Assembly (NCBI RefSeq): GCF_031877795.1
Contig: NC_133937.1
Coordinates: forward strand, 19,247,501 to 19,311,500
Reading direction: 5' to 3'
Length of the DNA stretch: 64,000 nucleotides
Source of the DNA: Strix aluco
Taxonomy: Eukaryota; Chordata; Aves; Strigiformes; Strigidae
The translations under genes and the position numbers were made by a program. Shown here in pieces: positions 3,560 through 56,524 of the stretch. A model generated the notes under the pieces. That model was given only the letters and a program-made list of their open reading frames with translations. It was not told the DNA's origin and made no database searches. Every line of letters begins with the position of its first letter. Within the stretch, counting starts at the first letter, position 1.

Positions 3560-3811
3560 TCAGAGCTAGCTGAGCTGCCAACCCGAAGCGCGCTCAAGAC
3601 ACGGGAGAGCTCTGCCAGCACCTGCCCTGAGCTCAAGCAAGAAAAGTCAGAAAGCTCAGCAACCTGGCTGCGAACAGAGGAGCCAGCGCTGCTCTGAAGA
3701 GCCCCGGGGCTCCCCTCACTTCGGGGAAGGGACCCTCCTTCTCCTTTCCCCAGCAGCGGCGCGCCAGGGGCGAGCAGAGCGGCGCAGCAGCACCGGCCCG
3801 CAGGCGGGAGC

Positions 3812-3909
3812 GGGCAGGGAGCCGCGGGCAGGGAGCCGCGGGCAGGGAGCCGCGGGCAGGGAGCCGCGGGCAGGGAGCCGCGGGCAGGGAGCCGCGGGCA
3901 GGGAGCCGC
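3812..3909. repeat. Seven perfect copies of a 14-bp G-rich tandem repeat
   Basis: The unit GGGCAGGGAGCCGC is repeated seven times without a mismatch (98 bp). The + strand has GGG runs separated by loops of 2 and 6 bases, which fits a G-quadruplex-forming pattern. The array lies about 20 bases downstream of the minus-strand donor at 3931, so it would be at the start of intron 1 of the putative minus-strand gene. Identical copies suggest recent expansion or homogenisation and probable length polymorphism. Confidence 0.9.
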
Positions 3910-3931
3910 GCTCCGCTGCCTCCCCGCTTAC

Positions 3932-4095
3932 CGGCACCAAACACGCGGGACAGCTCGCTGCCGGGTTGGGCTGCCGCGGAGAGCCTGGGCTCGTCGGGCT
4001 GAGCGGGGAACAGCACCCGCCCGGCCCCAGCCTGCCCCCGCCGCTGCCCCCGGCTCCCGGGGCGAGCAGCCGCGGCACCTACCGGAGGCCGCCAT
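3932..4095 (-). other. Putative first exon of an unidentified minus-strand gene
   Basis: From the minus-strand ATG at 4095 an open frame runs to a consensus donor (GTAAGC) after base 3932. It starts MAASGRCRGC and is rich in Arg, Ala and Gly. Alternatively, the transcript is spliced earlier at the GTAGGT donor after base 4083, leaving only ATGGCGGCCTCCG. Either form, or a wholly non-coding first exon, is compatible with the sequence. The short peptide matches no family I know, and the next exon would lie beyond the left edge or is unrecognised. The gene identity is therefore left open. Confidence 0.3.
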
Positions 4096-4489
4096 GGACC
4101 GGGGCTGGCGGGGAGGGGGCTGCTCCCCTTCCCTCACATCGCCGGCGGAGCGGAGCGGCGCGTCCCTCCCGCGGCCACTTCCTCGACCCCGTCCGGGCGC
4201 TCCGTCCCGCCGCCCGGCCCCGCCTCCCGCCCCGCCACCGCCCGCCTGCCCGGGGCGGGACGGCGCTCGGCAGCGGGGGGCGGCCTGGCCGGGACGGGAG
4301 GGCGCTCGGCAGCGGCGGCGCGGGGGGCGGCCCGCGACGCCCTCGGCAGCGCCCGGCACAGGGCGGCTGCGTTCGGCCCCGCATCGCCTTCCAGGTACGC
4401 GGCGGGATTCTCCTGCCCTAGGAGGGCCATTCCCTTTTCCAGCTGGCTCCAATCGTGTATTCCATAGGAGGCCGGGGAAAAGAGCGCTA

Positions 4490-7400: not shown

Positions 7401-8495
7401 CTTTACCCTTATAGGCTTTATAGTACACTCCATTGAAGACAATTTTTTAAAAGCCCCATCACAAAGACAACAAGAACAGAGCACTACATCCATCAGAGCA
7501 AATCCTCTATTTCACAAAGTTCAGTGGAGAAATGACTAATTTAAAGCCGCTGCAATATACAACAGCTGAATGAAATCTCCTCCTTATCAGGATCCTGAGT
7601 ACACTAACAGGCCATGCTTGTCCTCAGCAGCCTCACCCGGGGCTTCCACACCCACCCTTTGCCCATAGGCTCAGGAGCTCTATTTAAGCTCAGGCCTGGG
7701 CCTCCAGTACTTGTCTATCCTATTTCATAGGTATGCTTGTTTTAAGCCTGATCTCTGACCCTACCTCACTGAGGGCCTTCAGACTTCTGTTGTAAGTAAC
7801 CTTACTGTCCCTTCCCTCTCTGGTCCCTTTTGACCCACAGTGTTACTTTTACCCTAGCCCTTCCTCTGGCACCATTCTCCTTTGCTCCCGAATAGATTCC
7901 TCGCTAGACCTGACTCATAGCTCACCTTTCTCGGGACTGCCAGTGAATCTTGTTGCCAACATCTGGCTCTCCCTACCATGTTTAAGCTATGTGAGCCTAC
8001 ACCCTGTCGGTGAGGTCACTGACAGCACTCAGGTTGCCTACAGCTACCAGTTTGTTCTCCTCTATGGAGCAGCCTGGCTTCTTCTGGTCCCTACCATTCT
8101 CCTTTCAGTGATCATACTTAAAACGGATTACAACTATGAGTAGACTGATGGGGGGCGAAGGGGGAGAAGAGTTTAAGTGGACTGAAGTCTTCCCCCTCCA
8201 ACCGTCATATGTCCTAAGTCTCCTTGCAGAAACTGTCCCGGGTTCCCACCTCCTCTCCGCTGTGGGCCCTAAACCTGCCTCTGCACCACAAGCACCTTCC
8301 GCCCCGCCTGTTGCCTTAGCCCAGCCGCGGCGCCACCACTGAGCGGGACCTTTCCAAATCCCCTCACGCCGGCAGGATGGCTGTGCCTCACGGGTCCCTC
8401 CTCTGCGTGCCCGCCCCGCCAGCAGGCCTCTCCTCCTGGCTGCCGCTGCCGAGCACCGAGACCTGCACGCCGAGGCCCGCCTCCCCTACACCGCA
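4490..8495. other. Intergenic region upstream of NOLC1, no recognised gene
   Basis: No protein family or RNA gene was recognised. The open frames are short and lack splice context. The part from about 7.6 to 8.15 kb is pyrimidine-rich and could be an old dispersed repeat, but it cannot be classified by eye. The rightmost part rises in GC toward the NOLC1 promoter. Confidence 0.5.
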
Positions 8496-8674
8496 CCCGG
8501 CGGCTCCTCTTCCCCCCCCGCCCCCGCCCCCGCCCCCCCCCCCCCCGCCGGCCCCTCACAGCCCGACCAACATGGCGGGGAGGGCAGAGCCACAGCGGCG
8601 CGCGCACGTCCGTGCGTGGCGTGGCGTAGCGCGGCGCGCGCGTGCGCGCCGGCGGCACGTGGCGGCGGGGCAGC
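8496..8674 (+). promoter_or_regulatory. NOLC1 CpG-rich promoter and 5' UTR with poly-C tract, E-box and YY1-like sites
   Basis: A cytosine tract with scattered G runs from about 8512 to 8549, followed by AACATGGCGG at 8569-8578, which fits the YY1 promoter motif. Dense CpG follows, then a CACGTG E-box at 8656-8661, just before the start codon. MYC/MAX bind such E-boxes, and ribosome-biogenesis genes such as NOLC1 are commonly MYC-responsive; that link is inference. The ATG at 8572 is out of frame with the NOLC1 start, so if transcribed it would open an overlapping upstream reading frame. Transcription starts are not visible. Confidence 0.6.
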
Positions 8675-8824
8675 ATGGCGGAGTGGCGCGCGGTGCCCAG
8701 CGACCTCTTCCCCTTCGTGCTCGCCTTCCTGCGCGAGAACCGCTTCGAGGGCGCCGCGCGCGCCTTCGCCAGGGAGGCGGCGGCGGTAAGCGGGGGGGGC
8801 GGCCCGGGGGGGGCTGGGTGCTTG

Positions 8825-8856
<32 letters not shown>

Positions 8857-11800
8857 ACGCGGCCTCTCTCTTGGTTTAGAAGGAGCAGGACCCCAACGCA
8901 GCCTCCCTCCTGGACATCTTCAGTTACTGGCTGAAGTAAGTGCCCCTCCGGCGGCGGGGGCCGCGCTTACCGGGCCCGGGGGCGAGGGAAGCTCTATCGC
9001 GCTGCCGGGCTCCCTCCGGCACCAGCCGCCGTCCGGCCCTCGCCTCGTAGTCCCCGGCTCAGCCTTTCTCCCTGTAGGTCTCCAGCGGCCAAGAAGAGAA
9101 AGCTCGTTCCCAACGGCCCCCAGGCGAAGAGGAAGCCGGCCTCCAGCAGCGATGACAGCTCCAGCGAGGAGGACGAGACCCCCCCGGCCAAGAAACCAGG
9201 TGGGGTTTGTGAGCAGCCTTCAGGCAGGCCAGGGTTGTGTTGGACACGGGCTCCTCACCCGGATATAGAGCTCAGCTTCAGCGACTCATTTGAGGGCCTT
9301 CAGCAGCTCTCAGAGACTAGGTTTGTATCGATTGATCTTGTTTGCGGCAGGTCTTTTGCCCGTGGCATGTAAGGTATGTTCATCCTAGCGAAGGGATGAT
9401 CTCTTCATCCAGTTATAATTTAAGTACATCAGGGTTTGTGTCTGCTAGAAGGTTTTAGTCATTCAGTTTGTCTCTTTTGGCTGAGACTGGTGAAGGCATT
9501 GGGCTGTATTGAGTTTTGAAGGGGCTGTTTAAATAGCACCTTAATTTCTTTGTCTATATTGAGGTTCTGCTTTCCAAACACTCACTGATAGGACATCTTG
9601 TCAGAGTTACTACTGCTTTCTTCAGCACATTCGACCTGTGTGTTGATTTAAATATTGAGTGAAATTTGGTTTTGAGTGCATGTAGATTGGGCTGGTACTC
9701 TCTTCATGGGAGGTAGCTACCTCATGATTTGTTTTCTGTGCTATTTTCCAGGGACTCTCAAGTTTCACTGAGAGCTTTAAAGGATGGTTTCCTATCTTGC
9801 TGTTGTAGGAAAACTGATTCAGGTTTTATAAGTGCTTTCACATTTGTTAAAATATGCATAATTTGACGAAACTGCGTGGCTAGGATTTATCAGGCTCCTC
9901 TGTATTGGTGGGCACCGTGACCTGTTTGATGCAGGGCAGTTGTACAGTGTATCCTCGAGTTCCAGAGAAATGCCAAGCATCCTTGCTCACCTGCTGCTTG
10001 TGTGAGGTTGCTACCATCCTTTATCTCAAGCCTGTGTCCTAGTGTTATGAATAAATACGTCCTTTCCCTGCTCTTTGGTATGCGATGAGCTGTATTTTTC
10101 CCTTTTTATCTGGAATTGTTCTTACACCTTGTCTTAATCACAGTGTATGCAAGTTTGTCTATATATAGCAGTAGGCTTGTGGGAGAGACACGGAAAGAAA
10201 ACTGGTCTTCAACTGAGCCATCATAAAGCTGAATTTGAACCTAGATCTGATTTTTATTTGATAAGGACAGCTGCAAATGTAATTTGAGGCAAAATTATTT
10301 CTTTTGCTCCACGTTATTAAAAAGCAGTCAGTAACCAGGAAGGGGCAGATTTGGCTAAAACGTGTTAAGCAAAGTGTCTGGAACTTTAACACAATGTTAC
10401 GGTGGTTCTGTTTGGAAGTCTGCTTTTTCAGCGGGTTTTTTAAGCTGGAAGGTGTGCAGACCCAGTTAATGTTAACTCGGTTTGTGGGGACACTTTCTTT
10501 GTGGGGTGTCCTTTTTGGTGATAGAAATCTGCTCTTCAGTGTGTATGTGACAAAGATAATATCTAGAGTGGGTTTTATCTTGTTGCCTACCCATTTTGGA
10601 GTCTTCTGCCACACCCTGCTCAAGAAACAGTCAGTGATGAACCTCAGTCATGGTTTAATGACTTTAGAATATCCTTTTGCCTTGATACATACTACTGCAG
10701 GATACAGGTTCATGAAAGTTGTGGATTCACATATCATCAATGTGTGCTGTCCCTTATTTGCAGCTAAAGCAGCAGCTGTGCCCAAGTCAAAAACAGTTCC
10801 TCCAGCCAAGAAGGCAGAGAGCAGCAGTGAGGACTCTAGTGATGATTCAGACTCGGAGGAGGAGAAGAAGCCAGCAAAGGTCAGCTTTTCTTTCCAGCAT
10901 CTTTAATGCGTGTTTGACAGTGATGGATAGTAGCAAATTTGACGAGCAGAATTCTCTCTGAAATTGGACTCACCTTTCCTGAACTATGAAGTGCCTAGAC
11001 TGCTGCAGGTACAATGTAAGAATACCTTTCTGTAGTGGGTGGTGTGCCATTTGGACAGGTCCCATGAAAAATTAATTTCATGTCCAGCACTCACTTTGTT
11101 TCATATTCTAGTCTGTTCCTTCTTTTTATCCTAAGTCTGCCAGGGCTTACTTTTTTGCAGAGAAAGATTTATTTACAATTGCTAAAATAAATCTGATCTT
11201 TTTTTTTACATATGTGTATATATAAAGAGACAATCTTCTCTTTCCTTCTTTTTGCTGCAGTCATAGTCTTGATAAGTGATGGGGGGGAGGAATCTTGCAG
11301 TCAGTGTACACTAGAGGAGACCAGCCAGAGTTGCCCAGTCAGTATTTTCAGTCTTCAAACTAGTGTGATCTGGAGAAGGAAGAGAACAGTGCCAGCCCGA
11401 GAGCCACCCCATTTTGAGGATGCAGAACTGGAGACTGGGGTGCAAAGGAAGTCTCCCATGGGCTGCTGGGAGGTTTCCCAGAGCAAAATCGTTATCCAGG
11501 GATTTTCAGGCCCTAACCATTAGGCAGAGTGGTGGTTCCAAGTCAAAATGGTAACCTCTTTGAAAGATGTCTGTTTATACTCTGTATATGTGTGTCTCAC
11601 TTATTAGCCTCCTTTTTTCTTTTCATGGCTAAAAGGGCTAATTAGTTTTCTCTCCTGCTGTTTAGAAAGGCGCAAAACCTGTGGTGAAGCCAGCTGGAAC
11701 CAAAATCCAGCCTCAGAAGAAAGCAGAAAGTTCCAGCTCTGACTCAAGCAGCTCAGATGAAGAAGCACCAAAGAAACAGCCACCAAAACCAACAACACCT

Positions 11801-17800: not shown

Positions 17801-18669
17801 TCTCTGCCTCATGAAGTAGGCTTGTTTTGGGGGGAGGCTGGGCCCACAGAATTATTTGTATTTTTGCTCCATCCTCAAGCACTTGAACCTTGTCTGGAGA
17901 ACCCTAGGGAGTGCACATACGTGCATAATATTATTCTGGCAAAGGTTGATTGGATATGCTTGCACAGGAGCATCCTTGAGCTGCCTGATCTGAAGAAGGG
18001 AAAGAATTATGAATCTGAGAAACACTTAAAGATTGAGGTGATGTGAACAGCGCTCCTTATTTGCAGAGCAAGGAGGGAAGGAGGTTGTCACTAAGGGAAT
18101 ATCATGTGCCTGTATGTGCTTACTGTATCTCATCTTCTTTAACAGGCAGCCTCTCCATTCCGCCGCGTAAGGGAAGAAGAGATTGAGGTGGATGCCCGTG
18201 TTGCTGATAACTCATTTGAAGCAAAGGTAGGGCTAGGTAGTGCCCAGAGTGGTAACACTAGGCGTCTGCAAATACATGTCAGCAGAGCAGCCTTGGTGTG
18301 CCTGTGGGCAGCCTTTTTGGTGGGAACTTTTTCCACCAGGAGGTGCTGTTAGGAAGTGTGTGAGCACTGGCAGGGGGTGTGTGGGAGAGTGGAATCAGCT
18401 TCAGTGTTATTGTACTGCTGTTTGCTGGGTAGGATGAAGTGCAAAGCCTCGCCTTTACTCTCTTGGGTACTGACCTGCATTTTTTTCTTCTCCCCCTTCA
18501 TCCTTCACAGAAAGGAGCAGCTGGTGACTGGGGTGAGAAGGCTAACAATATCCTGAAATTCACTAAAGGCAAATCTTTCCGCCATGAGAAGACAAAGAAA
18601 AAACGAGGCAGCTACCGTGGGGGCACTATATCGACCCAAGTCAATTCCGTCAAGTTTGAAAGTGACTGA
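8675..18669 (+). CDS. NOLC1, nucleolar and coiled-body phosphoprotein 1 (Nopp140), 14 coding exons
   Basis: Exons: 8675-8785, 8880-8935, 9078-9199, 10764-10879, 11666-11807, 12330-12433, 13120-13270, 14110-14250, 14638-14727, 16024-16170, 16390-16938, 17649-17761, 18146-18226, 18511-18669. All introns are GT-AG and the frame is kept throughout, giving 693 residues (the human protein is about 700). An N-terminal LisH-type dimerisation region (about residues 10-55) is followed by a basic NLS-like cluster (KKRK, 61-64). Then come about a dozen alternating Lys/Ala/Pro-rich linkers and Ser/Asp/Glu blocks such as [15 protein letters not shown]. These are typical casein kinase 2 targets. The last two exons encode the conserved SRP40/Nopp140 C-terminal domain (about 615-693). 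The family protein shuttles between nucleolus and Cajal bodies and chaperones box C/D and H/ACA snoRNPs. The start was chosen at ATG 8675 because [10 protein letters not shown] leads directly into the LisH region. Confidence 0.96.
8823..8856. repeat. (TGCC)8 microsatellite in NOLC1 intron 1
   Basis: Eight uninterrupted TGCC units plus a partial one fill roughly one third of the 94-bp first intron (8786-8879), just upstream of its polypyrimidine tract. Length variation here would change the size of an already minimal intron. Confidence 0.9.
9200..18510 (+). other. NOLC1 introns 3-13, no separate gene recognised
   Basis: The introns longer than 300 bases are 9200-10763, 10880-11665, 11808-12329, 12434-13119, 13271-14109, 14251-14637, 14728-16023, 16939-17648 and 17762-18145. 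Each is bounded by GT and AG. No snoRNA with clear paired C and D boxes, no tRNA and no interspersed repeat was recognised by eye. The acceptor of exon 10 is preceded by an unusually long T run (about 16001-16018). A covariance-model search would be needed to exclude intronic snoRNAs, which would fit a snoRNP-chaperone host gene. Confidence 0.6.
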
Positions 18670-20640: not shown

Positions 20641-21649
20641 CCTGGTAGTTAAAGGTGTGGAATAGCAGGTGGGAAAAGGGAGGGTATCAGTGCTGGGGGT
20701 GAGGTAGCACTGTCTCTACATCTGTCTACAACCACTTTTTATCTCCATAGTTACACACTTGTGCATGCAACAACCCTTCAGAAGTGAAAGGTGGCCTGTG
20801 CAGCTGGCTGTCAAGTGATTCTGCAAGAAATTTGGATGAAACTCTAGGAGAATATTTGCTTATACTGAGACAAACTGAGGCTGCTTGAGTCCCTTGCCAC
20901 CAGAATATCTGGTTAGCTCTTCTCAAATATTGCTACCAAGTTAGCTGTATGGCAGCTGGCAATATCACTTAGGTAGCAACAGCCTGTGGGAATAAGTAGC
21001 CATAGGCATAACTGAAAAATTATGTATATACCTAGTTAAAAGAAGTAATTTCTGTTTCCCCTTAGATTTCTTCCTCTTCCCCGGTGCAGGGAAAGGAAAT
21101 TTGGTAACAGGTAGGGCCTGGTGGAGGTCTTGTGTGCTGTAATGCTTATTTTTACCCCTTGTGCTATGCCTCAATGGAAAGGTTGGGATGAATTAATCGC
21201 CAGGCGCACGGGGCTGTCAGTTGCTCTGTAACCAAGGCTGACTGCCACAGCCTTCCACCTCGAATGTGATGTTCTACGAGAACGTGTAGCACTATCTGTA
21301 GTTTCAGCAGCAGATGCAAAGAATGCCAGCCTTGATGGAGATCAGCACTAGACTGAGCAAGCACTGAGGGGGAAATGTTTTGTGAGACTCAAAGCTTCCA
21401 TGTGCTTGGCCTTCCTAAGGAAAAACTGCTCCCTTCACAAGCTTTTGCAGCTGCTTGGCAGCCTTAACTACATCTCTGCTCTGTGCTGCTGTCCCGGTGT
21501 AAAGGAAACGCCTCGTGGAGCACTTGAGCCTAGCTTCCCTGGGGATCAGTGGGGCAGGTTCAGCTGTGGTTAATGCTGGAACCGGACTGACAGGACATCC
21601 CCCTCTGGCACGTGCTGTACCCGTATGCGTGCCCTGGAACACCAGCGTC
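20641..21649. other. Intergenic between NOLC1 and the next CpG island
   Basis: No gene, RNA or classified repeat seen. Confidence 0.5.
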
Positions 21650-22660
21650 CCCGTGCCCCGATGCGCCGTCCATTCATTCTGCTGTCCTGACCGCGGCGTG
21701 TGCAGCCCCCTGCCCCATCCTCTCGGGGAGCCCGCGGAGGGGGCCCGGCCCTGCGCGTCCCTGGGGAGCTGCTTGGCCGCCCTTTTGACGCGCTGGCCGA
21801 GCGGGAGCTGCCGGGCGCTGCCCCAGCGGGGGGGCGGCTCTCCGGGTCCCCACCGCCGACTTTCTCGCCCCGCCTCCGGGCCGCCGAGCGCCCGCCGCGG
21901 CCCGGCTCGGCCCGTGGGTGCGGCCCCTGGGCCGGGGCTGCCCCGCCCGGCCCCGCCCGCGCCCGCCGCCGCCCGGCCTGAAAGGGGAAGGCGGGCGGGC
22001 GGCGGCTGCTCCTCTCGCAGCGCCGCGACTCGGGCCGCGCTCCACAGCGGGACGCGCTGCAGGTGGGTGCCGGCACTGCTACCGGCGGGGCGGGCGCGGC
22101 GGGGGGGGGCCCGGGGCGGGCGGTGCCGGAGGAGCCGGCACGGGAGCAGCTGCGGCCGGTGCTCCTCGTTCCCCGTCCCGCCGGGGCGGCTCTCGGCCCC
22201 GCAGGCGCGGCGCTGCCTCCCCGTCGGGGCGCCCACGACCAGCCCTGGGAGCGCCCCGCCGCCGCCGGTGCGAGCACGTCCGAGGGCTGCGGCGTCTGCC
22301 CCGCCGGGGGCCGTCCTGGCCGGCGGCCGTGCAGGGCGGGGGGGTGTCCTTCTACACACACCCCCCCCCGCGGCGCTGGCGGCGGCAGCGGGGCCGGTGG
22401 TCTGCGCGGGCGGGCTGGCCCGCCGGTATGAACTGTGGGCGCGGGCGACGGTGGCACCCGCGGGTCCTGCGCGGCTGCCGGTCGCGCTGTGGGGTGCGCT
22501 GAAGGGCTGGGCTGAGCGGTCTGAGCTCTCGGTAGAGGCACCGGAGTGCTCCTCTGCTGCTGGAAGGAGCGAAGGCAACAGTGTGAGTTCTCAGCTGTCA
22601 GCTTGGGCCTGGCTCTGCCAGGACGCGTGTGAGCAGCCTGGGTGGCTTCAACGGGGCTAC
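21650..22660 (+). promoter_or_regulatory. CpG island, probable promoter of the UGT8-like gene
   Basis: This is about 1 kb of very GC-rich, CG-dense sequence between NOLC1 and the UGT8-like coding exons, with multiple GGGCGG/CCCGCC (Sp1-type) boxes and no TATA box evident. Open frames of over 350 codons occur on both strands only because stop codons are rare at this composition; their conceptual products are Arg/Pro/Ala/Gly strings. The downstream + strand gene whose 5' UTR exon is missing is the UGT8-like gene, which makes it the likely target. Confidence 0.55.
21980..22062 (+). other. Putative non-coding first exon (donor side) of the UGT8-like gene
   Basis: The sequence GCGCTGCAG followed by GTGGGT makes a good donor after base 22062 within the CpG island. 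The UGT8-like start codon lies only 2 bases after a strong acceptor (TCTCTCCTTGCAG, ending 28793), so its transcript must have at least one upstream 5' UTR exon. Joining 22062 to 28794 gives a 6.7-kb first intron. The left edge of this exon is not visible, and the pairing is an inference. Confidence 0.35.
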
Positions 22661-24300
22661 TGAAGGGCACGAGTTAAGCATCTGCTTAACTGTGCAGGAT
22701 CAGAGCCTTGGCACCTGAACAAACGTTCAAAGCGCTTTTGTGTAACTTGCTTCATCTTCCTCTATGAGATTAGATCTCAGGAGTGTCTTCGCTCTCCTTG
22801 TTCTGCCTTCTCTCCCGGTGTATCCCTCCTCAGCCTTTGTTTATGGCAGCTCAGCCAGGTCACATTCCTCTGGTGTGCTCGGAGCCAGGGAGCTGTTTGG
22901 TTTGGTTGTTTTTTTCCTTTTTACGTGAGGGCGTCAATTGTTTTATTGAAGATAAGACTCATCTCTAGCTTCTCTACTGTAATTCTGTCAAATGTGATCA
23001 GACTAGTCTGTCAGGACTTTATCAATCCCCAGTGCTTCCTACACAAGGTTTCACAACCTTCTGGGGTGTTTAATGACTTTTCTTTTAATGTGGTGCTTCT
23101 CTGCAGAAAGAGGATGAAATGTAGGGCAGTAAGTGGAAGACTCTCGTGCCCACCCACCCCTCTTGACCGCTTCTCTAAAGTTTGGTGCACTTGTATCTAT
23201 CCAGTTTTCTTTGCAGTCTCAAGAACTTGTTCAACTTGGCTGTCATACAGACATAACACCTTCTTAAGACCAAAATGTGCATTGAACTGTCATGTGCTTT
23301 CACTTCAAGGTCTATGGCTCACATGAATATTTGGAAATGGCCCCAAGCCTTTCTGTCTCTTGCATCCAGGGATTACAAATAATGTTCTTAAGTGCTTCCA
23401 CACTGCAGACCTGAGACCTCTCACAAGGAGCACAGCCTCACATCAGCTGCTTCTGTCTTGCAACCGTGTTGCAAGCGAGGGGAAAAGGCCATCCAGAAGA
23501 ACTTGCTGTTGCAGAGCACTATGGCGTCACAAACCATCTCTGTCCTTTTCAGAAGACAACCAGGAAGCCTGTGGATATGGAGTGGGGGGAATCTCACTTA
23601 CCACCTAGGCAGATTTAATGTATGATGAGAGGCCGGGTGGGGAAGCAAATGTGTGGTGTTTGACACCATCCCCCAGCTCCATTTCTTGAAGGTGTGTGTA
23701 GTTTCAAATGCCTTGACAAGCTGAGATACAGATCTTTATTTCTCTTCTTGGTTGTTATGGACCACTGTTTTCTTTAGTACCCTGGCTGTGACCTATGGAC
23801 TGCCAACTTCCTGCTGCCCCACAGATTCCTGCCTTGCCTCTAGAGCTTCCTCTGTAAAACGCCAATGAGCCAGGAAGGATGTTGAAGATGGGCCCAAGGC
23901 CCCAAAAGTTTGGAACTGACTGGGGACTTGGGGATTGATTTGGACATCAATCTTTGTCCAAAACGGATGAGGATGAGCAGAGCGCTTCTGATGCCATTGT
24001 GTGGAACCAGTAGCACCTAGTGTGATGCAAAGTGTGAGTTATTCTGATGCTGACCTGATCACTGCTGTGGTTGTTCCCTTTGGTCTTTTGGGGATCTGGG
24101 CTTTCTTCATTCTCTGTGTTTCTTGTGGGCCGCCATGAAGATGTTGAAAGAAAAATGCTAGAAAGGTACGCTGTTTTGAGCGGACCATCTGTGCACTATT
24201 CACTCTGTGTGTGAACAATATTTTAAAAAACTCAAGGCTGTAGGCTGCCTGGGGAGGCTTATAGTTGAAGGAGAGGGTTTTTTCTTGCTCATTGTTTTCT

Positions 24301-28795: not shown

Positions 28796-31700
28796 ATGAA
28801 GATGATGAAGCTGCTACCATGCCCTGCTGCTCTTCTCTTCCTAGTGGCTGCATTCAGTCCGGAGCCATCTTACTGTGCCAAGGTGCTGATCATGCCCACC
28901 ATAGTCTTTGACAGCCACTTGCGAGTCTTCATGCGAGTGGCAGAGGCACTGACTGACCGGGGCCATGACCCCGTGCTACTTCTTCATGAGGGTCGGGATC
29001 TGGAAACCTACCTGCCCAGCTTCCGCATGCAGAGGTACTGGGGTATCTTCAGCACAGAGAGTGCAGATACCTGGGTGCAGGAGAAGATAAAGCGTGTCTT
29101 CCAAGGGAAGATGACCTCTCTGGAGATGTTTTCCTTTTTGGAGAAGTACCTGGAAAACTGTGACCTAGTGCTGGGAAACTCTACCCTTCTGCAGAAACTC
29201 CAGCATGAACACTTTGACCTGCTGTTGGTGGACCCCAATGAGATGTGTGGCTTTATCCTGGCCCACATTCTCCAGGTCAAATATGCTGTGATCTCCACTG
29301 GTTTCTGGTTTCCAGCGGAGATTGGTGCAACTTCCCCCATTGCCTATGTCCCTGAGTTCAACTCCCTGATGACAGACAGGATGGGCTTCTTTGGTAGGAC
29401 TTGGAATCTCCTGGTCTACATGATCACTCGTGTGGCCACAAAGCTGGTCATCCTGCCCAAGTTTGAACGTCTCATGGAGAAGCACAGTGTGGAGCCAAAG
29501 ACATCCATGTTGGACCTTGTCCATGGAACTAGCCTCTTCTTCCTCTGTAATGATGTGGTGCTGGACTTTCCCCGCCCAACACTCCCCCATGTCATTTTCA
29601 CAGGAGGGATCCTTGCTGAGCCTGCAAAGCCCCTCCCAGTGGTAAGTGCAGGAAAGCTTTGAGCTGCAATTGCACGTTAACCTGGGGAGTTACTAAGTGC
29701 AAATCTGCTTTTGAAGAGCCTTGTAAAGTCTCTAACACCCCAGAAGTCTGGAAAGCTGCTGTGGTTTGGTGCCTTGGTGCAGCAGGGAGACAGGGAGCAC
29801 TGAGGACTGTGAGGTTGCAGGGAGGATGTAGAATTAAGTTGTCCACCCTGATTTAGCTTCACTGTCCATGTAAAATGGTGTGTGGAAGTCCTAAATGGGC
29901 AGTGTTGCCCCTGGGACTTGGTCATGTGTAGCTTGTTTGTTCCTATATTTGAAGCGGAAATGGGAAGAACAATTAGTCTTCATTGCTTCATCACTGATTT
30001 ATGTCAATCCAGAATTTCCTCCTTAATCCTATTTCTTGCAGGGCGTTTCTGCCCTCGAGCTTGTAGTCTTAAGAATCCATAAAGAAGAGGTGTGCTTGTT
30101 CCCTCATCAAATTCAATGTGGAATCCCAAAGTGTACAAAACAAAGTGTGTCATCCCCTTTTTCTCAAGGTCCAGCCTGAGGGAAAACTCCCCAGACATCC
30201 CAGAGGCTTTCTCTGGCCTGTACCTCACTATCCCCAGTAATAAGTTCAGAGGGACAAGCTCTTAAAGCCTTCAACTGAAGACAATATTGGAACAGAGCAG
30301 GACCTGTCTGCCATTCCTCCCATCACCTTACAACTTATACAAATAATGAAGGGAAATAGACCCAGATAATGACACTTGGGCACTCAGGTTGTCCTGGTGT
30401 CCCAACTAAGGGACTGAAAATGAGGTAATATTCAAGTTTCAAATTATTAGAGGCCTGTCAAGATCTCTGATGGCAGCTTTAATAGAGACAATTTTTTGGG
30501 TGTCAATATTTTCTAGTTAAAAGGAAAAAGTGAGGTCAGGTGCTTTAGAACAGAAGTTCTCCAGATGTGTATGGCTGCACATCACCCTTTCCCATGTGGC
30601 ACGGCATGCAGGTAATGCAACACACATAGGGTGCTTCAAAAGCTGTGTCAGAGTGGCTGCCTCACAGCTCTTGCAAAACACTGGCTTGGTCTAATCTGGC
30701 CACGTACACACCTGTCTTATAAAGAAGGGAGTTGTTTGCTGGGGCATTACTCATATGCTTCACAGCTTCCAGAACTGATCCCAAGGCACCTAAGGGAAGA
30801 ATGATGGAGATAAGTCCGGAGCCCTGCAGTTAGGCAGTGGCTGTCATGCTAGTAGGTAGGAATGTCTGTGTCCAGGTATGCCAGCAGAAGAGAGGGCCTC
30901 TGTAGGTCTAGGTGTAGCTTAAGGAATCTCCCATCTGAACTGGAGCAGAGTTATGTAATTGAGGTGTTTATTTCCTCATATTTGAAACACTCTGATTGTG
31001 AGTTCTTCTAATTAGGACTCAGTGAAATAGAGATACATGTTTGAGAGATGGTGAGAACTCTTGGTGGTCAACCATGCTTCTCTAGCAACTTTAATGCTGT
31101 TTCTGAAAGTCAGATGTTAAGTCCCAATTATAATGAATAATGTAAGCATCTGTTTTATGAGTCATTGAACTTTTATTTAGAAAAGTAAAACTAGCACTTT
31201 CTCTTCTTTAGCAGTTTTGGTGGTTGTATTGCTCAAAGGATGTGAAACTCAAGAGAATGAAGGAACCAAAATCCCTTAGTTGAAAACTTTTTGGTTCTTG
31301 GTTGTTGTGTTGTTTTAGGGCTTTTTAAGCATTTCTGCAAAGATAGGTTGAGCCCCTGAAGCATACAACAAAGGACAAATATCCCCAGAGAATAACACTA
31401 AAATGTGCTTTGTAACTTCTTCTGTACTATGATACTCCAACCTGTAGACTACTATTATTAAGATATTCTGAATTAATCATCCTATTTTTCTCCTCTAATA
31501 ACATGAAGAACTTTTTTTTTTTGCCCTTCGTGTACTTCTACAGTGTATATTTCAAGGAAGTATTTGTATTCAAAGGCAGATTTTATGAAACTTCTCTAAA
31601 ATGCTCCTGACTGTGATACATGGGAAACTTGAAGCAGGACAAAATCCATAATGAGAAATAGGCTCAGCTGAGCCTGACATAAAAGGGAATAGGCTGTGTT

Positions 31701-34700
31701 TGCTCCACAGCAGCTGTGGTGGCTGATTTCTTCTCCCTGCAGCCTTCTGGCCCTGGTTGAAAAAAGTATGGACTCTGTTCTAGATACACAACTGTTTACA
31801 TAGCATTACAGGTAGCCTCTAAGTGAAGGACAAACAACTGTGTTTTTTGCTGGAGCTGTAGCTACCTTTCTGCCTAGTGACCAAAAACTAAATCTGCTAC
31901 CTGCAATTAGCTATCAAGGATGGGTAGGTCTCCTGGCAAGATGGCAAAACCTTGTGCCACCTCCAGGACACTTTGAGATTACAGAGTTTGTGGGGGATCT
32001 CCAGCAAGATGTTATACCTGACTCTGCCTGCATGATGTTTCATCTGTTGTATCAGCCTACAGCTAGAGACTCTTGACAGGCCTCCTGCCTTAGTGGTGAT
32101 GGAAAATAGCCTTCCTCTTTTTACTCCAATTTTTTTCTCTGCTCTGGCTGCTCCTATGTGGACCCTATGTTTTCAGAGCTCTCCTTGCCAAAGACTAATT
32201 GTGTTACCTCCAAAGCAGGAGGTAATACTATGAAATGCAAGTTTTGGACACCTCCCTGCAAGCTCCCAAGTCCAGCAGGTGCTCAAGTAATTTCTGAATT
32301 TCTGTCTGGCTGGGTGCAGAAATTATAGCGGTTTTAGAGTTTGCTGCCTGGTGAAAACCATGCAGTTTTGTGCTCCAGGTGGATTTGGCTTTATTCTCTC
32401 CATAGACAACTTTCTACTGGCAGAGGCAACAGTGGGAAGGGCCTTTCTCCAACAAGACTTCAGGGCAGCTCTGTGTGTTTTGCCTGCAGGGTCTGCGTCT
32501 CTGGGTGGAAGCAGCAGATGTGGGTGTTGTTGTTGTCTCCTTTGGCATCGGGATCCGAGCTCTTCCAAGCGATTTGGTGGAGAAGATGGCTGGCGCATTC
32601 GCACGCCTCCCGCAGAGGGTGGTGTGGAGGTGAGAAGGGAATGGAATTCCTTCTAACTCAAGTTGGATGAAAATCAATGTTGAGGGATGATTCATCTCAA
32701 AGCACAGAATTTGCTTTCCATCTCTTGATCTGATTGAATTTATAATTGTTCTTTGTGTGTTTCTTTTCCATTTTTTCCCCTCCTTTATCTCCTCCCATAG
32801 ATACTTTGGGCAGAAGCCAAGAAACCTGGGTGAGAATACACTGATGATGGGGTGGCTGCCCCAGAATGACCTGTTAGGTAAGGCTGGGCTCTGTGTGTGT
32901 GTGTGTGCGTCGCTATCAACATCCCTGGAGTTTAGCCCAAACCACAGCAAAGGCATACAAGGACAACAGCACCTGTGTGGGTCTGAGTCTGTTGCTTGTT
33001 GCAAGTCTGACCTGTACAAAACATGGTCCTCATCTAACATCTGCTTGAAGCTGCATCTTGGCCCTATCTCCCTCCTCCTCCAGGTGCTACTTGGCAAGTT
33101 TCGGGCTGCCAAAAACCAGATGTGTTCCCAAAGGGTAACATCCTCTCTGCTCAGCATGCCTGGTTTTCCCTAAACATACATCAACACTGTGTGTTGAGGA
33201 AGCCACCGGTAGCCCTGTTTCAGCATGGAAGGCACTGACCTCCTGCCATTTCTTTGCTTGCAGGCCATCCCAACGTGAAAGCTTTCGTTAGCCACTGTGG
33301 GATGAATGGTGTATTTGAGGCAATTTATCACGGTGTGCCAGTGGTGGGATTTCCTTTCTATGGGGACCAGTTTGACATTATGACCAGAGTGCAGGCGAAG
33401 GGCATGGGTATCCTCATGGACTGGAGCAGAGTAAAAGAAGAGGATCTTTACCAGGCTGTTGTCACCGTTATCTCTGACCCCAGGTGAGGCATCCAGAAAC
33501 ATCAGGCTCTTCCTTGGTGCAGACTGTATGTAGGGACCAGTGTGTCTTTGTGTTGACTCCTACACAGCCTGTGGTGGCTTCTTGACCAAGCAGAGTTGCA
33601 AGCATTGCTCAACTGGACAGACATGCCTTGAAATGCTGAGATGCGGTCCAGGAGGAGATACTCCAGCATCTGCTGTTGGAGAGCGTGATCTAGTCCTGTT
33701 CGACTGTAATTTTCTTAGAAAGCTTTATGAGATGCTGAGGCACAAACCTCTTCTCCTTTTAATGCCAGCCTGTCATCAGGGAAAGTGAGATCACAGCCTC
33801 ACATTGGGATCTCCCTAGTCTTGTCCAAACAGCTTTCTGTAGAAACAGTTAGTGTAGAGAGTGGACTGCAGGTAATATTCCATCTGTTCCTTCTGACAAT
33901 CAGATGCTCTGCCCTTTCCTAGATCTGCTGCAACACAGTGACACAGGGCTCCCACATTCTAACAGGACACATGCAACTGCTAATGTTTGAAATGCTGTCC
34001 AAGAGCTTGATTTTTTTTTTTTTTTTTTCCCTTCCTTCGTTACCTATTATGAGCTCTCAACAACTTACACTGTCAGTAGGTGTTGCATCTTGGTACCTTG
34101 AAGGATTTGGCTGGTCATCAAGTCTGCAACTGTTGCTTGATGCTGGGTGAGGGCTTTGGGTGTAAACTCCCCTCAGAAAGCAACAATCCACATGAACCCA
34201 CTGAACAGGTACTTGGGAGCTGAAGTGCCAGTCTTGTTAACAAAACACAAAGTAAAATACACTCTGGCTTTTGCTGCCATGGCTAATGATTGCCATCAGA
34301 GTGGCTTTCAGAGGCATATATGAAGAGTATCATGGAGGAAATTTGCCACTCTCCCAAGGTATCATTTGGGACTTGAAAGCACCACTGGACACCTCAGACC
34401 ACTTCTCAGCTATGAAACTCCAGTCAGGAGGATAACTTCTTGTCTTCTTCCCTTGCAGCTACAGAAAAGCAGCCAAACTCATCTCAGCTCTGCACCTGGA
34501 CAGACCAATGCATGCTCTCAATAGGACAGTGTATTGGCTGGAGTACATCCTTCGTCATGATGGGGCACCGTATCTTCGCCCTGCTGTCTATGACCTCTCC
34601 TTATATGAGTACTTCTGCCTGGACATCTTGGCTCTTCTCTTCTTGTGTCTGGCCAGTATTGGATTCATCCTCTACAAATCTGTGATGTGGTGCAGAAGGA

Positions 34701-34774
34701 AAGGTGCCAGTCCTGTGTATCAGAATGGCAATTGCATGAAAGGCCACTTCACAGAAGAGAAGAAATTTCAGTAG
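28796..34774 (+). CDS. UGT8-like UDP-glycosyltransferase (ceramide galactosyltransferase family), 5 coding exons
   Basis: Exons: 28796-29641, 32490-32629, 32801-32877, 33264-33483, 34459-34774. Frame is kept across all GT-AG junctions, giving 532 residues (human UGT8 is 541). Layout: signal peptide (1 to about 28); N-terminal acceptor domain with the family's catalytic His in FDSH (H41) and partner Asp in LLVDPNEMCGF (D146); UGT signature from WLPQNDLL to FYGDQ (347-390); one transmembrane helix (about 480-504); a short basic cytosolic tail ending KKFQ, a KKxx ER-retrieval signal. Possible N-glycosylation sites are N128 and N446. Motifs such as VPEFNSLMTDRM, LDFPRPTLP and TRVQAKGMGIL place it with UGT8 rather than UGT1, UGT2 or UGT3. 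UGT8 transfers galactose from UDP-galactose to ceramide in the ER lumen. Two residues differ from UGT8 as I recall it: Q390 (His in UGT8) and C366 in SHCG (Gly in UGT8). The sugar donor is therefore uncertain. The symbol is provisional. Confidence 0.93.
29642..34458 (+). other. UGT8-like introns between coding exons
   Basis: The four introns are 29642-32489 (2.8 kb), 32630-32800, 32878-33263 and 33484-34458. All are GT-AG. No nested gene was recognised. A short (GT)n run lies near 32893-32907 and a T-run near 34011-34028. An open frame of 247 codons on the minus strand across exons 2 and 3 is a shadow of the coding sequence plus intron, not a gene. Confidence 0.75.
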
Positions 34775-42900: not shown

Positions 42901-45665
42901 TTGAACCAAAGGCTTGAAGACTCCTCCTTTGCATGTCATACCTTGCCAATCAAGGAGTCCTCTGACTCTATTAGTTCAGTGCCAGAGGAAGGAGCCTGGG
43001 CTCTTGTTAGCAGGACTTTCCAAAGACATTTCACGAGGGGTTCTCAAACAGGCTGCAAAAAAGAAGGCAAGTAGCTGGCAGTGGTGTGCAAAGCTTTACC
43101 AGGGATCAAAATAGTCCCGAGACAGGATCAAGTAGGATGAATGCTGATTATTTTATTTTATTTTAGTTTAGTTTACTTTATTTTATTTTAATTTATTTTA
43201 ATTTACTTTTTAATATTTATTTTTATTTTAATTTAATTTATTATTATTTTTTTTATTTTATTTTTGTGAAAAGGCAGAAACAAGCACTTTCTGCTCTGGT
43301 TACAGGAATAGGATTTTAGTGTCACTTCTGGAGCCAGCAGGTTTTACAAAGCAAAGTGCTCAACTTTCATTTTGCTGTCTCAACTTTGCCTGGGATTGGC
43401 AAACAGACCAAGACACTGCAGCTCTGATAGACTTCAGCTGGAGGAAAGAGGTGATGTTTTGTGTGTGTCTGGTGTTGGTGTAATTTCTACTAACTATAAC
43501 TGCAGACAACTTAATTGGGCTTTGGAGCAGGAGAAGGATGAAGTGGAGAGGAGCCAACATAGAGCCATTGGCAAGGTCTGGCTGCATGAATGGCCTTGGG
43601 GCTATTCTGTTCGGCTTAGCAAAGGAGAAGGTGCTTTGTATGTTTGAGAATGCAGGGTGGAGAGCTGTTGCACACCATAACCAATGTAGGCAGCAGTTCA
43701 CGATGGCAATTTGGTTAATGCAATAATGTTATTGTGTCGGTTTATTTTACTCTTGTTTAAAGCACTGGACCTGTTCTGGCTGAGAAATTCTGCATGTTGT
43801 TTTGTACAAAGTCTCTAATAGTTCAAAAAACACAAATAGGTACATGCATGGATGCCTGTAGATGTTCTTAAACTCAGCCTGAGCTTTGAGACTTCTGTGT
43901 CAAAGATGTAGCTGATCAGGTTGCTTAAAGGACACCTTCGATCTTAATCACAAGTCCTTCAATAGGATTTTTGTACATGCATTTGTTCAAGAACTTGTTA
44001 GGTAGTAACTGGTCTCCTTCAGCCTCTAAATTTTCAACTGTGAAAACAGACACCGATGAATTAAATTGGCAAATTCTCCGCTAATCTCAGGTTCTCCAGC
44101 TTCTGCATGTGTATTCAACTGTTTTCAGAACTAAGTTTGAAGACATAGCAACTCTAGGCAAAAGCCCAGCTGCTCACTTAATCACTGTTTCCAAACACCA
44201 GTGGGCGTACTTACAGGCTTTAAAGAACAAAAGGTTTTGTAAATGGTACATGCTACCACAAAACCAACAAGAGAGCTCCTTAGAGGTGATTTTCATCATT
44301 GGTGTTTCATATGGGATTTGTAACCCTTAGCTTAGAGCCATGATAGCATTCATCCAAAGGGTGATTGCAGATTATGACATCTTTGGGTTAATAGTTCTTG
44401 ATGTCACCATCATTTTGTTTAATCCTTAGGACATTAGGTATCCCTCACGTTATTTTCTCTTTGGAGATGTTTCACAGTGGTAAGAGCAACTAGGTCAGAG
44501 AGCAAGAAATAACTTGGAGCACTAGTAAGGACTCCAAGTAGTCCCTTCTGAGAGGCCTTATCTTCCCATTCAGTGGCTCTGCTTTGGTTTTGTCCTGTTT
44601 GGGAAATGCTGTCTTGCCTGGCAGGAAGGCAGTCCTATCCAGTGTGGTCCCTAGAAACCATCTTTTAGAGTATGTATGCATCAAAGGACAACACTTTGTC
44701 TAGCTCTATGCAAAATTGTTCTCAAATGCCCAACTTTCTCAGTCATCACATACATCCTTCAGAAGGACCATGCCCAAATGCTGTGCAGTGAGGATGTGAT
44801 ACAGACACAAAGGCTGCTGCTTATGGCTGTATCTTCTCAGGGTAAAGAAGAGACGTTATTGCTGAGCTGTGTCTCTTAATGACTGCCAGTCAAATGCCAT
44901 TCAGGGAGCTGCAAGGAAGGACTGTTTCCTCTGGTACTGTGCAGATGTTAAACCCCAAACTCTTTGTATCAGCCTATTTGGGTGACTCTTGCAAGGCAAT
45001 GCAGCTGACCTGAGACTGGGGAAGCAGAAGGAAGACAGATAGACTGCTAGCAAGGAGCAGGGGATCCTCTCTTCTCCCTGGGCCTGAGGGCTCTGCTTTT
45101 CCAGGGTAGGACAGCTAACAGCTCAGGAGTCTCAGGAAGGAGCATAGCCAGCCTCCTGCCTGCTCTTGCTTTTGGGGATTGAAGAGCTCTGCTCAGTGGG
45201 TGACTCCTCCCCGCAATTTTGTGGGCTTTTGCTCCCCTCTAATGGCCAAAGAGCTGAGAGCCCCTTTGCTGGAGACAATGATGTCACGGGCTCTGGTGAC
45301 TGGTGCCAGAGGGTGCCCCTGTGCTAGCAGACCTGTGAGGCACCAAGATGACTTCAGCTCCAGGCAGGCTCACGGTTACCCAGCACTGTGTTGGGGATGA
45401 GGATGGGATCTCCCCCAGCTCTCCCTGCAGCTCTAATTGCTAGATTTTACCCTCCTTATTTTCTGTTCCACCTCCCAAGAAATGCAGCTGTGTCATGGTG
45501 GCTGGGGGGAAGGGTTACAACTAAACTTGGGAAAGAGAGGCAATGCAGGCAAATTAGTAAATCTGCACAGATCTCAGAGTCTTCCTTGAGTCAGCACCTA
45601 CTCCTACCTAAACCACTAACTGAAGCTCTCCACCTTTGACACCTGCACTGCAGCTCTTCCCTCTC
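36953..45665. other. Long intergenic region between the UGT8-like gene and the CR1 pair
   Basis: No gene recognised on either strand. Open frames of up to 184 codons (for example about 39.7-40.2 kb) show no family resemblance and no splice context. The only clear element is the AT-rich tract at 43142-43268. Regulatory elements for the flanking lipid genes could lie here, but the sequence alone does not show them. Confidence 0.5.
43142..43268. repeat. (ATTTT)n-like A/T low-complexity tract
   Basis: About 127 bases of imperfect TTTTA and TTTAA units with almost no G or C. Degenerate units indicate an old, slippage-grown microsatellite. Confidence 0.9.
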
Positions 45666-47543
45666 GCCCAATCTAGCCTTGAACACTGCCAGGGAGGGGG
45701 CATCCACAACTTCTCTGGGCAACCTGTTCCAGTGTCTCACCACCCTCACTGTAATGGATTTCTTCCTTATATCTAATCTAAATCTGCCCTCTTTCAGTTT
45801 AAAACTGTCACCCCTCATCCTATCACTCCACTCCTTGATAAAGAGTCCCTCCCCATCTTTCCTGCAGGCCCCCCTGAAGTACTGGAAGGCTGAAATAAGG
45901 TGTCCTTGGAGCTTTCTCTTCTCCAGGCTGAACAACCCCAACTCTCTCAGCCTCTCTTCACAGGGGAGGTTCTCCAGCCCCCTGATCATCTTCATGGCCC
46001 TCCTTTCGACCTGCTCAAGCAGGTCCATGTCTTTCTTATGTTGGGGGCCCCAGAGTTGGACACAGTTCTCCAGGTGGGGTCTCATGAGAGCAGAGTGGAG
46101 GGGGAGAATCCCCTCCCTCGACCTGCTGGCCACACTTCTCTTGATGCAGCCCAGGACATGATTGGCTTTCTGGGCTGAGAGCGCACATTGCTGACTCACA
46201 GTCAGTTTTCCATCCACTACTACTCCCAAGTCCTTCTCCATGGGGCTGCTCTCAATCCACTCTTTGCCCAGCCTGTATTTGTGCTTGGGGTTGCCCTGAC
46301 CCATGTGCAGGACCTTGCACTTGGTGTTGTTGAACTTCATGAGGTTTGCACAGGCCCACCTCTCCAGCCTGTCCAGGTCCCTCTGGATGGCACATCCCTT
46401 CCCTCCAGCGTGTCAGCCGCACCACACAGCTTGGTGTCATCAGCAAATTTGCTGAGGGTGCACTCGATCCCACTGTCCATGTCACCAACAAAGATGTTAA
46501 ACAGCACTGATCCCAGCACCGATCCCTGAGGAACACCACTCGTCACTGCTCTCCACTTGGACATTGAGCCGTTGACCGCAACTCTTTGAGTGCAACCATC
46601 CAGCCAATTCCTTATCCACCAAGTGGTCCGTCCATCAGATCCATGTCTCTCCAATTTAGAGACAAGGATGTTGTGCAGGACAGTGTCAAATGCTTTGCAC
46701 AAGTCCAGGTAGATGATGTCAGTTGCTCTTCCCTTATCCACCAGTGCTGTAGCCCCGTTGTAGAAGGCTGCCAAGTTCATCAGGCACGATTTGCCCTTAG
46801 TGAAGCTGTGTTGGCTGTTACCAGTCACCTCCTTATTTTCCATGTGCCCTAGCATAGTTTCCAAGAGGATCCGTTCCATGATCTTGCCAGGTACAGAGAT
46901 GAGACTGACTGGCCTGTAGTTCCCTGGGACTTCCTTTTTTCCTTTTTTGAAAATGGGGGTTATGCTTCCCCTTTTCCAGTCAGTGGGAACTTCACTGGAC
47001 TGCCACGACTTCTCAAATATGATGCACAGTGGCTTAGCCACTTCATCCGTCAGTTCTCTCAGGACCCGTGGATGCATCTCATCAGGTCCCATGGACTTGT
47101 GCACCTTCAGGTTCCTTAGATGGTCTCGAACCTGATCTTCTCCTACAGTGTGAGGTTCCTCATTCTCCCAGTCCCTGCCTTTGCCTTCTGCGTCTTGGGC
47201 AGTGTGGCTGTCGGTGAAGACTGAGGCAAAAAAGTCATTGAGTACCTCAGCCTTCTCCATATCCCAGGTAACCAGGTCTCCCATTTCATTCCAGAGAGTG
47301 TTCACATTTTCCCTAGTATTCCTTTTATCACCAACATACCTATAGAAGCTTTTCTTGTTGCCCTTGATGTCCCTTGCCAGATTTAATTCTATCAGGGCTT
47401 TGGTTTTCCTAACCTGATCCCTGGCTGCTCAGACAATTTCTCTGCATTCCTCCCAGGCTACCAGTCCTTACTTCCACCCTCTTTAGGCTTCCTTTTTGTG
47501 TTTGAATATCTTGTTTTGCATCAGCTTTTGCATCTAGGTATTA
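45666..47543 (-). mobile_element. CR1 LINE copy with much of the reverse-transcriptase ORF, inactive
   Basis: Reading the minus strand from 47543 downward, the coding sequence of the CR1 second ORF is recognisable. It includes NYRPVSL, the [11 protein letters not shown] motif, [10 protein letters not shown] and the catalytic FADD, then the C-terminal region up to the LAVFKARLG segment near 45670. One open frame covers 47305-46337 and the next 46340-45591. A one-step frame change near 46390 separates them, and an in-frame TGA (47431-47429) looks like a CGA-to-TGA CpG decay. The endonuclease part is missing (5' truncation), and the usual 3' tail repeat is absent, so the 3' end is also cut. The element cannot be autonomous. 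Confidence 0.93.
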
Positions 47544-55700: not shown

Positions 55701-56524
55701 GGTTGCAGCCTGATGTTATTGGTCTGGTTTGATCCCCAAGCCAGCACCTGAACTAGGCAATTCTGCACTGTGATGACTGCAGCAAGAGGGTGGCGGGTAG
55801 GCAGCGGAGAGTTGGGCTTTCCACCCAGTTTCCATCCAAAAAAGTACAGAAGAGCTGGTCTGAAGTGCTGTGTAGGTAGATCTAGGTAAGCAAGCCTGGG
55901 GCAGGGAACTCTTGTACCACAAATGTGCCAGCAGGTAGGTGAGCTTTATCAATACAGACAATTCCAATGGGAACCTAGGTTTTGGTGGGATCAACCCATA
56001 TAATGGTTTCAGCTTGCAGCTCACTCGTTCTGCCTCCCGTGAAAACTTGCGCAACTGCCGTGCTTTTACCTGACTAATGATGCACCTCTCCTCCAACCCA
56101 AGGTGACACCGTGTTCATTGTTCTCCAGAAAAAGAAGCTCATCTTCCTCCACTGGTACCATCACACTACCACGCTGATCATCAGCTGGTATGCCTGTGAT
56201 GATCTGGCGGCTGGTGGTGGCTGGTCTGCAGCTGTGAACTACAGTGTCCATGCTATCATGTACTCCTACTACGCTGTGCGAGCCGCAGGCTTCCAGGTAT
56301 CCCGCTTCATTGCCATGACAATCACCACTATACAGATGGTGCAGATAGTGGGATATATAATAATGAATGTCTTGATCATCATCTGGATGAAGGATAACGT
56401 CTGCCCCACCAGCTGGACAGTTATTTTCATTTCATCCGTGTTGTATGTCAGTTACCTGGTGCTCTTCGGCAACTACTTCTTCCAGACTTACCTGAGGAGC
56501 TCTCAGAAATCAAAGAGGGAATAA
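52783..56524 (+). CDS. ELOVL3, very-long-chain fatty acid elongase 3, 4 coding exons
   Basis: Exons: 52783-52877, 53607-53738, 55392-55543, 56103-56524. GT-AG introns keep the frame, giving 266 residues (ELOVL3 and ELOVL6 are about 265-270). All ELO family signatures are present: KLLELGDT (K122 to T129), the catalytic histidine box HWYHH (143-147), NYSVHAIMYSYY (172-183) and TTIQMVQ (201-207). Several hydrophobic segments fit a seven-helix ER membrane protein. The C-terminus KSKRE is a KxKxx ER-retrieval signal. The enzyme condenses malonyl-CoA with saturated and monounsaturated long-chain acyl-CoAs, the first step of elongation. ELOVL3 and ELOVL6 are close paralogues; position next to NOLC1, as in human, decides for ELOVL3. 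The start gives MELDFDPSEL, matching the family's usual length. Confidence 0.93.
52878..56102 (+). other. ELOVL3 introns
   Basis: Introns are 52878-53606, 53739-55391 and 55544-56102, all GT-AG. An open frame that runs into exon 3 from 54937 is intron read-through. No nested gene or classified repeat seen. Confidence 0.75.

Follow-up and report, generated by a model that had tools for sequence, protein, structure and literature searches.

A UGT8-family gene between NOLC1 and ELOVL3 in Strix aluco, a probable ohnologue of UGT8

The Strix aluco genome contains, between NOLC1 and ELOVL3 on contig C7 (NC_133937.1), a UDP-glycosyltransferase (UGT) gene that closely resembles UGT8 (ceramide galactosyltransferase), which raises the question of whether this is UGT8 itself, a copy of it, or a separate and older member of the same family. 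The human UGT families are UGT1, UGT2, UGT3A, and UGT8, and mammals are not known to have a second UGT8 gene. The initial annotation of the window (the whole stretch of 64,000 nucleotides analyzed here, C7:19247501-19311500) had proposed a separate, older gene that mammals either lost or never acquired at this locus.

The gene runs exactly from ATG to stop over positions 28796-34774 of the window (plus strand), and its description as an intact five-exon UGT8-type gene is borne out by our analysis: five coding exons, separated by four introns that are all GT-AG, encode a UDP-glycosyltransferase of 532 aa with one terminal stop (Table 1). The Pfam UDPGT profile matches the protein over residues 29-509 (E = 2e-111; 373.7 bits, against a cut-off of 19.5), placing it in the UGT superfamily (GT1); at the level of sequence, this score and the 53.3% identity to UGT8 with agreement of introns (see below) exclude a chance origin of the match. 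The UGT signature (PS00375) is found at residues 347-390, a hydrophobic anchor peaks at residues 481-499, and the protein terminates in KKFQ; the regions around His41 (FDSHL) and the catalytic Asp (LLLVDP) can be aligned with those of the remaining UGTs in the genome. The catalytic His and Asp, signature, membrane anchor, and KKxx tail noted earlier are thus all present, and a candidate signal peptide was assigned by eye. Among the best 60 of 123 matches to solved structures, the highest are C-terminal halves of human UGT2B (five, E down to 2.1e-47), the rest are glycosyltransferases of other kinds, and no entry of these 60 bears the label UGT8. When viral contigs were scanned with exon 1, four pattern matches and no relative were returned, as expected. 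A check of intron 3 for a simple GT repeat had no bearing on the interpretation.

Table 1. Features of the window and members of five gene families on the paired segments. Positions are those of the window unless a contig is given.
Feature	Position	Strand	Remarks
NOLC1 C-terminal SRP40_C match	18508..18657 (C7:19266008-19266157)	+	upstream neighbor
CpG island	21501..22700	.	1.2 kb, GC 0.76, CpG o/e 0.86; between NOLC1 SRP40_C exon and UGT coding start
UGT exon 1	28796..29641	+	846 nt; N-terminal hydrophobic stretch, acceptor-side domain, FDSHL and LLLVDP regions
UGT exon 2	32490..32629	+	140 nt; followed by the UGT8-type phase-2 intron
UGT exon 3	32801..32877	+	77 nt, length as in UGT8; UGT signature begins
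UGT exon 4	33264..33483	+	220 nt; bulk of UGT signature, GDQ (Gln390) at end
UGT exon 5	34459..34774	+	316 nt including stop; membrane anchor, KKFQ tail
ELOVL3 ELO-domain exon	56102..56512	+	downstream neighbor; name from position
PITX-type homeobox/OAR exon	~1.3 kb beyond window end, in C7:19311501-19321500	-	profile match, read
ELO family	C4:59.48 and C7:19.30 Mb		
PITX-type OAR	C4:59.71 and C7:19.31 Mb		third on C13:3.72 Mb; shared homeobox end and OAR read
RHD (NFKB)	C4:56.63 and C7:19.47 Mb		
NDST	C4:68.46, C4:69.70, and C7:18.19 Mb		also C13:6.83 Mb
CAMK2	C4:67.89 and C7:18.05 Mb		also C13:6.72 and C28:1.29 Mb

The flanking genes are NOLC1 and ELOVL3, as first annotated, and a PITX-type gene follows just beyond the end of the window. 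The ATG of the window gene follows an AG resembling a splice acceptor by 2 nt, an arrangement identical in the UGT8-like gene on contig C4, so a noncoding exon upstream of the coding start is likely in each; the CpG island between NOLC1 and the coding start, to which no other gene is assigned, is the likely candidate for the promoter or noncoding first exon of the window gene. Another CpG island (window 3601-4650; 1.05 kb, GC 0.72), likewise assigned to no gene, lies upstream of an island at 8201-9250. Reading frames on the minus strand (45591-47428, with an RVT_1 match within 46337-47428) resemble a CR1 LINE.

A UDPGT profile search of the genome (1.41 Gb, 202 contigs) identified 31 matches in four places: a UGT1 cluster on C6 (15), a UGT2 cluster at C4:60.56 Mb (eight), a UGT8-like gene at C4:68.34 Mb (five), and the window gene (three). 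The UGT1 cluster contains ten open first exons and the UGT2 locus three, the number also found in chicken and zebra finch (PMC2819257). No UGT3, UGT5, or other further UGT locus was detected at the sensitivity of this genome-wide search; UGT3 is reported to be absent in chicken, turkey, and zebra finch (PMC6209164). The UGT1 cluster has at its edge a UGT1-like first-exon fragment with an in-frame stop (C6:42705369-42705650).

The C4 gene (C4:68334956-68363337, its end computed from the model) encodes a protein of 541 aa with a KKVK tail and a DH donor motif at residues 382-383. NDST-family matches on the opposite strand begin 100 kb downstream (68.463-68.509 Mb), in the position of NDST4, and others on the plus strand (C4:69.67-69.70 Mb) are in the position of NDST3; in vertebrates with both NDST genes, NDST4 faces UGT8 with 20-150 kb between the 3' ends (PMC4359090). 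The C4 gene, complete and facing NDST4, is the canonical UGT8, so the window gene is a separate gene and something else. The search of the same genome for a second locus thus upholds the separateness claimed in the initial annotation, which had named the lack of any other UGT8 as part of the result that would tell against it. The interval from the NDST4 to the NDST3 position contains a pair of weak NDST-like matches in minus orientation (C4:68962632-68966982), one of them with two stops, which are possibly an NDST remnant.

The window gene was compared with UGT8 and with one UGT2 and two UGT1 models from the clusters; where the UGT1 and UGT2 genes allowed alternative splice models, one per gene was kept, chosen by its consensus splice sites and by how it aligned to the other UGTs. 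The window protein is identical to UGT8 at 278 of 522 positions (53.3%), in contrast to 32.9% and 31.6% for the two UGT1 proteins and 33.5% for UGT2. The window gene has all four coding introns at the same places and in the same phases as UGT8. Three of the four are also found in UGT1 and UGT2, and UGT2 has one extra; the second intron of UGT1 and UGT2 falls at alignment column 352 in phase 0, in contrast to column 356 in phase 2 in the window gene and UGT8 (a family feature noticed here, not a published definition). UGT1 and UGT2 also lie in clusters elsewhere in the genome; they are like the window gene in the UDPGT domain, UGT signature, and DQ donor motif. A stray UGT1 or UGT2 gene is ruled out by the low identity, a retrocopy by the retained introns, and a recent copy of UGT8 by the 53% identity.

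UGT nomenclature sets thresholds of 45% identity for a family and 60% for a subfamily (PMC8010143). The observed 53.3% falls between the two, so the window gene belongs to the UGT8 family, in agreement with its second intron, and lies outside the subfamily of canonical UGT8. It shares with UGT8 the spacing of the start codon from the preceding AG and the KKxx tail, and differs in having GDQ for GDH and HCG for HGG, in a coding span of 6 kb against 28 kb, and in lying on another chromosome with other neighbors, not facing NDST4. The canonical subfamily is named UGT8A.

Tajima-type relative-rate counts for the window gene and UGT8 are balanced (48 v 51, 45 v 47, and 46 v 44; p = 0.84, 0.92, and 0.92), the first two tests not being independent in that their UGT1 outgroups share constant exons. 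The balance is imperfect, since a five-protein maximum-likelihood tree gives the window gene a branch longer by one third (0.49 against 0.37 for UGT8), and somewhat faster evolution of the window gene is possible. Between the two genes pN is 0.30 and pS 0.81, with dS saturated, which in this single genome fits long constraint. Identity is 52.9% in exon 1 and 44% in the last exon.

The chromosomal setting of the two genes suggests how they are related. Five families (ELOVL, PITX, NFKB, NDST, and CAMK2), chosen for having human paralogues on 4q and 10q and so not a random sample, are all represented on both C4:56.6-69.7 Mb and C7:18.05-19.47 Mb (Table 1), so UGT8 and the window gene lie in paired segments; location in paired paralogous segments, here for five of five families so chosen, is a mark of ohnologues from the two rounds of vertebrate genome duplication (2R). 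The names of the individual members (NFKB1, PITX2, and so on) are presumptive ones, given by position. On C4, UGT8 lies between CAMK2D and NDST4; on C7, ELOVL3, PITX3, and NFKB2 are 20-190 kb from the window gene, and NDST2 and CAMK2G 1.1-1.2 Mb. The C7 stretch (1.42 Mb) is only 0.1% of the 1.41-Gb genome, which makes it unlikely that the window gene came to lie there by chance. Over 139 aa of their last exon, the ELO genes of the two segments have 51% identity, similar to the 53% between the window protein and UGT8. The claim that the gene is old is therefore sustained by three features: 53% identity, balanced relative-rate counts, and a place in the paired segment. The third segment, on C13, gave no UDPGT match in the genome-wide search, and among the papers listed for the paralogon there was nothing on point. 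OAR matches at C40:70513 (near the contig start) and C41:96984831 (~97 Mb) have an identical score and open-frame length, and are possibly a region common to two sex chromosomes.

The window protein lacks the residue that has been tied to the use of galactose by UGT8, a difference that the initial annotation leaves unmentioned. The signature of the window protein ends in DQ (Gln390) and that of UGT8 in DH (His383); in this genome Gln occupies this position in UGT1 and UGT2 as well, so the His of UGT8 is most simply taken as the derived state. In mammals, too, the last residue of the UGT8 signature is His383, with Gln in other UGTs; in mouse Ugt8, H358 is needed, and an H383Q enzyme raised MGDG and hexosylceramide (HexCer) like wild type (PMC11795506), so the DQ motif alone leaves the donor undecided. 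A human UGT8 His-to-Gln mutant accepts UDP-glucose or UDP-galactose (PMC10932239). The DQ motif of the window protein is thus predicted, from the sequence, to go with relaxed, altered, or glucose-leaning use of UDP-sugars. His365 (equivalent to UGT8 His358) and the Asp-Gln pair are kept, and the HGG motif reads HCG (Cys366); plant UGTs have HCGWNS. At 21 positions the window protein differs where UGT1, UGT2, and UGT8 are conserved, and at 22 positions UGT8 differs where UGT1, UGT2, and the window protein are conserved. The 52.9% identity of exon 1 allows a guess that the acceptor may be UGT8-like.

On this evidence the window gene is probably a functional UGT8-family gene ("UGT8L"), present once in the genome, that is the ohnologue of UGT8 and was later lost in mammals. 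In the early genome duplications of vertebrates, one ancestral gene would have been copied along with the chromosome segment around it; UGT8 would have been kept on the CAMK2D-NDST4-PITX2 segment and the window gene on the CAMK2G-NDST2-PITX3 segment, the latter then disappearing from mammals. Of the two histories first offered for the mammalian locus, the data favor loss over a gene never gained, given that mammals are not known to have it. The predicted product is a GT-B-fold, type I membrane protein of the ER, in which the N-terminal half would take a lipid-like acceptor and the C-terminal half a UDP-sugar, and the KKFQ tail would serve in ER retention. We infer an active enzyme whose acceptors may be UGT8-like (of ceramide, diacylglycerol, or bile-acid type) and for which UDP-glucose may serve as donor, either alongside UDP-galactose or in its place; the split from UGT8 would date from the early vertebrate duplications. 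Rather doubtful, though conceivable, is the further proposal that DQ is the ancestral donor site, kept in the ohnologue of non-mammalian amniotes and perhaps of most vertebrates, that this enzyme may glucosylate or hexosylate ceramide, diacylglycerol, and bile-acid type lipids in the ER, and that the galactose preference of UGT8 arose after the duplication, the glucose-capable sister being lost in mammals.

Some of the same observations could have arisen otherwise. A later, small-scale copy of UGT8 in the reptile-bird line, settled near ELOVL3 by chance and diverged through faster evolution, would agree with the longer branch of the window gene and with the fact that its occurrences in the literature passages (quail, chicken, and turtle, see below) are all sauropsid; such a copy would, however, have had to land inside the small C7 stretch that pairs with the UGT8 segment, and the balanced relative-rate counts, along with a comparable divergence between the ELO genes of that segment pair, also argue against it, so we regard it as unlikely. 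The absence of UGT3 reported for three birds leaves room for a hidden copy, and the DQ motif of the window gene is not that of UGT8, so that a displaced UGT3-family gene might be considered; but UGT3 is a family apart from UGT8, and its proteins are expected to be less than 45% identical to UGT8, a line that the window protein exceeds, and this origin seems very improbable. That the gene is UGT8 itself, moved, would account for the UGT8-type intron and the KKxx tail, yet a complete 541-aa UGT8 faces NDST4 on C4 in the usual vertebrate arrangement, which leaves this reading next to no credence.

The remaining alternative concerns activity rather than origin, and holds that the gene is catalytically dead or decaying. 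The Cys in the HGG motif, the 21 changed positions, and the 44% identity of the last exon could be read in this way, but UGT8 has 22 such changes of its own, and plant UGTs carry Cys in the same motif. Further, 1.6 kb of coding sequence is free of stops and frameshifts, the splice sites are intact, and both the Asp-Gln pair and the His that UGT8 needs for activity are kept; a dead gene is accordingly quite improbable, if less remote than a displaced UGT3.

Genes that may correspond to this probable UGT8 ohnologue have appeared in other sauropsids. Quail LOC107315928 lies within 100 kb of a candidate region for white eggshell on chromosome 6 which includes part of PITX3, and in the uterus of white-eggshell mutants this gene is expressed at less than about 70% of its level in wild type (PMC8912178); "UGT8L" is listed in an expression table for snapping turtle (PMC8420019), and for chicken granulosa cells it appears together with UGT8 in a set of predicted lncRNA targets (PMC7900633). 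These names are consistent with a second UGT8, and orthology to the window gene is indicated by position in quail and by name only in chicken and turtle. A gene of this kind is therefore not private to this assembly; it is already annotated elsewhere and is transcribed in quail. In the part of the literature examined, there is no dedicated study of UGT8L, no treatment of it as a UGT8 ohnologue, and no discussion of its donor motif.

At the level of a review, birds are counted as having three UGT families, UGT1, UGT2, and UGT8 (PMC6209164). That count stands, with the UGT8 family here comprising two members that are different enough for two subfamilies and that differ in donor motif. The window gene is a naturally occurring counterpart of the His-to-Gln mutant of UGT8 made in the laboratory and would make the origin of the galactose preference of UGT8 testable; it is also a little-studied lipid-enzyme candidate beside PITX3, adjoining the region mapped for white eggshell in quail.
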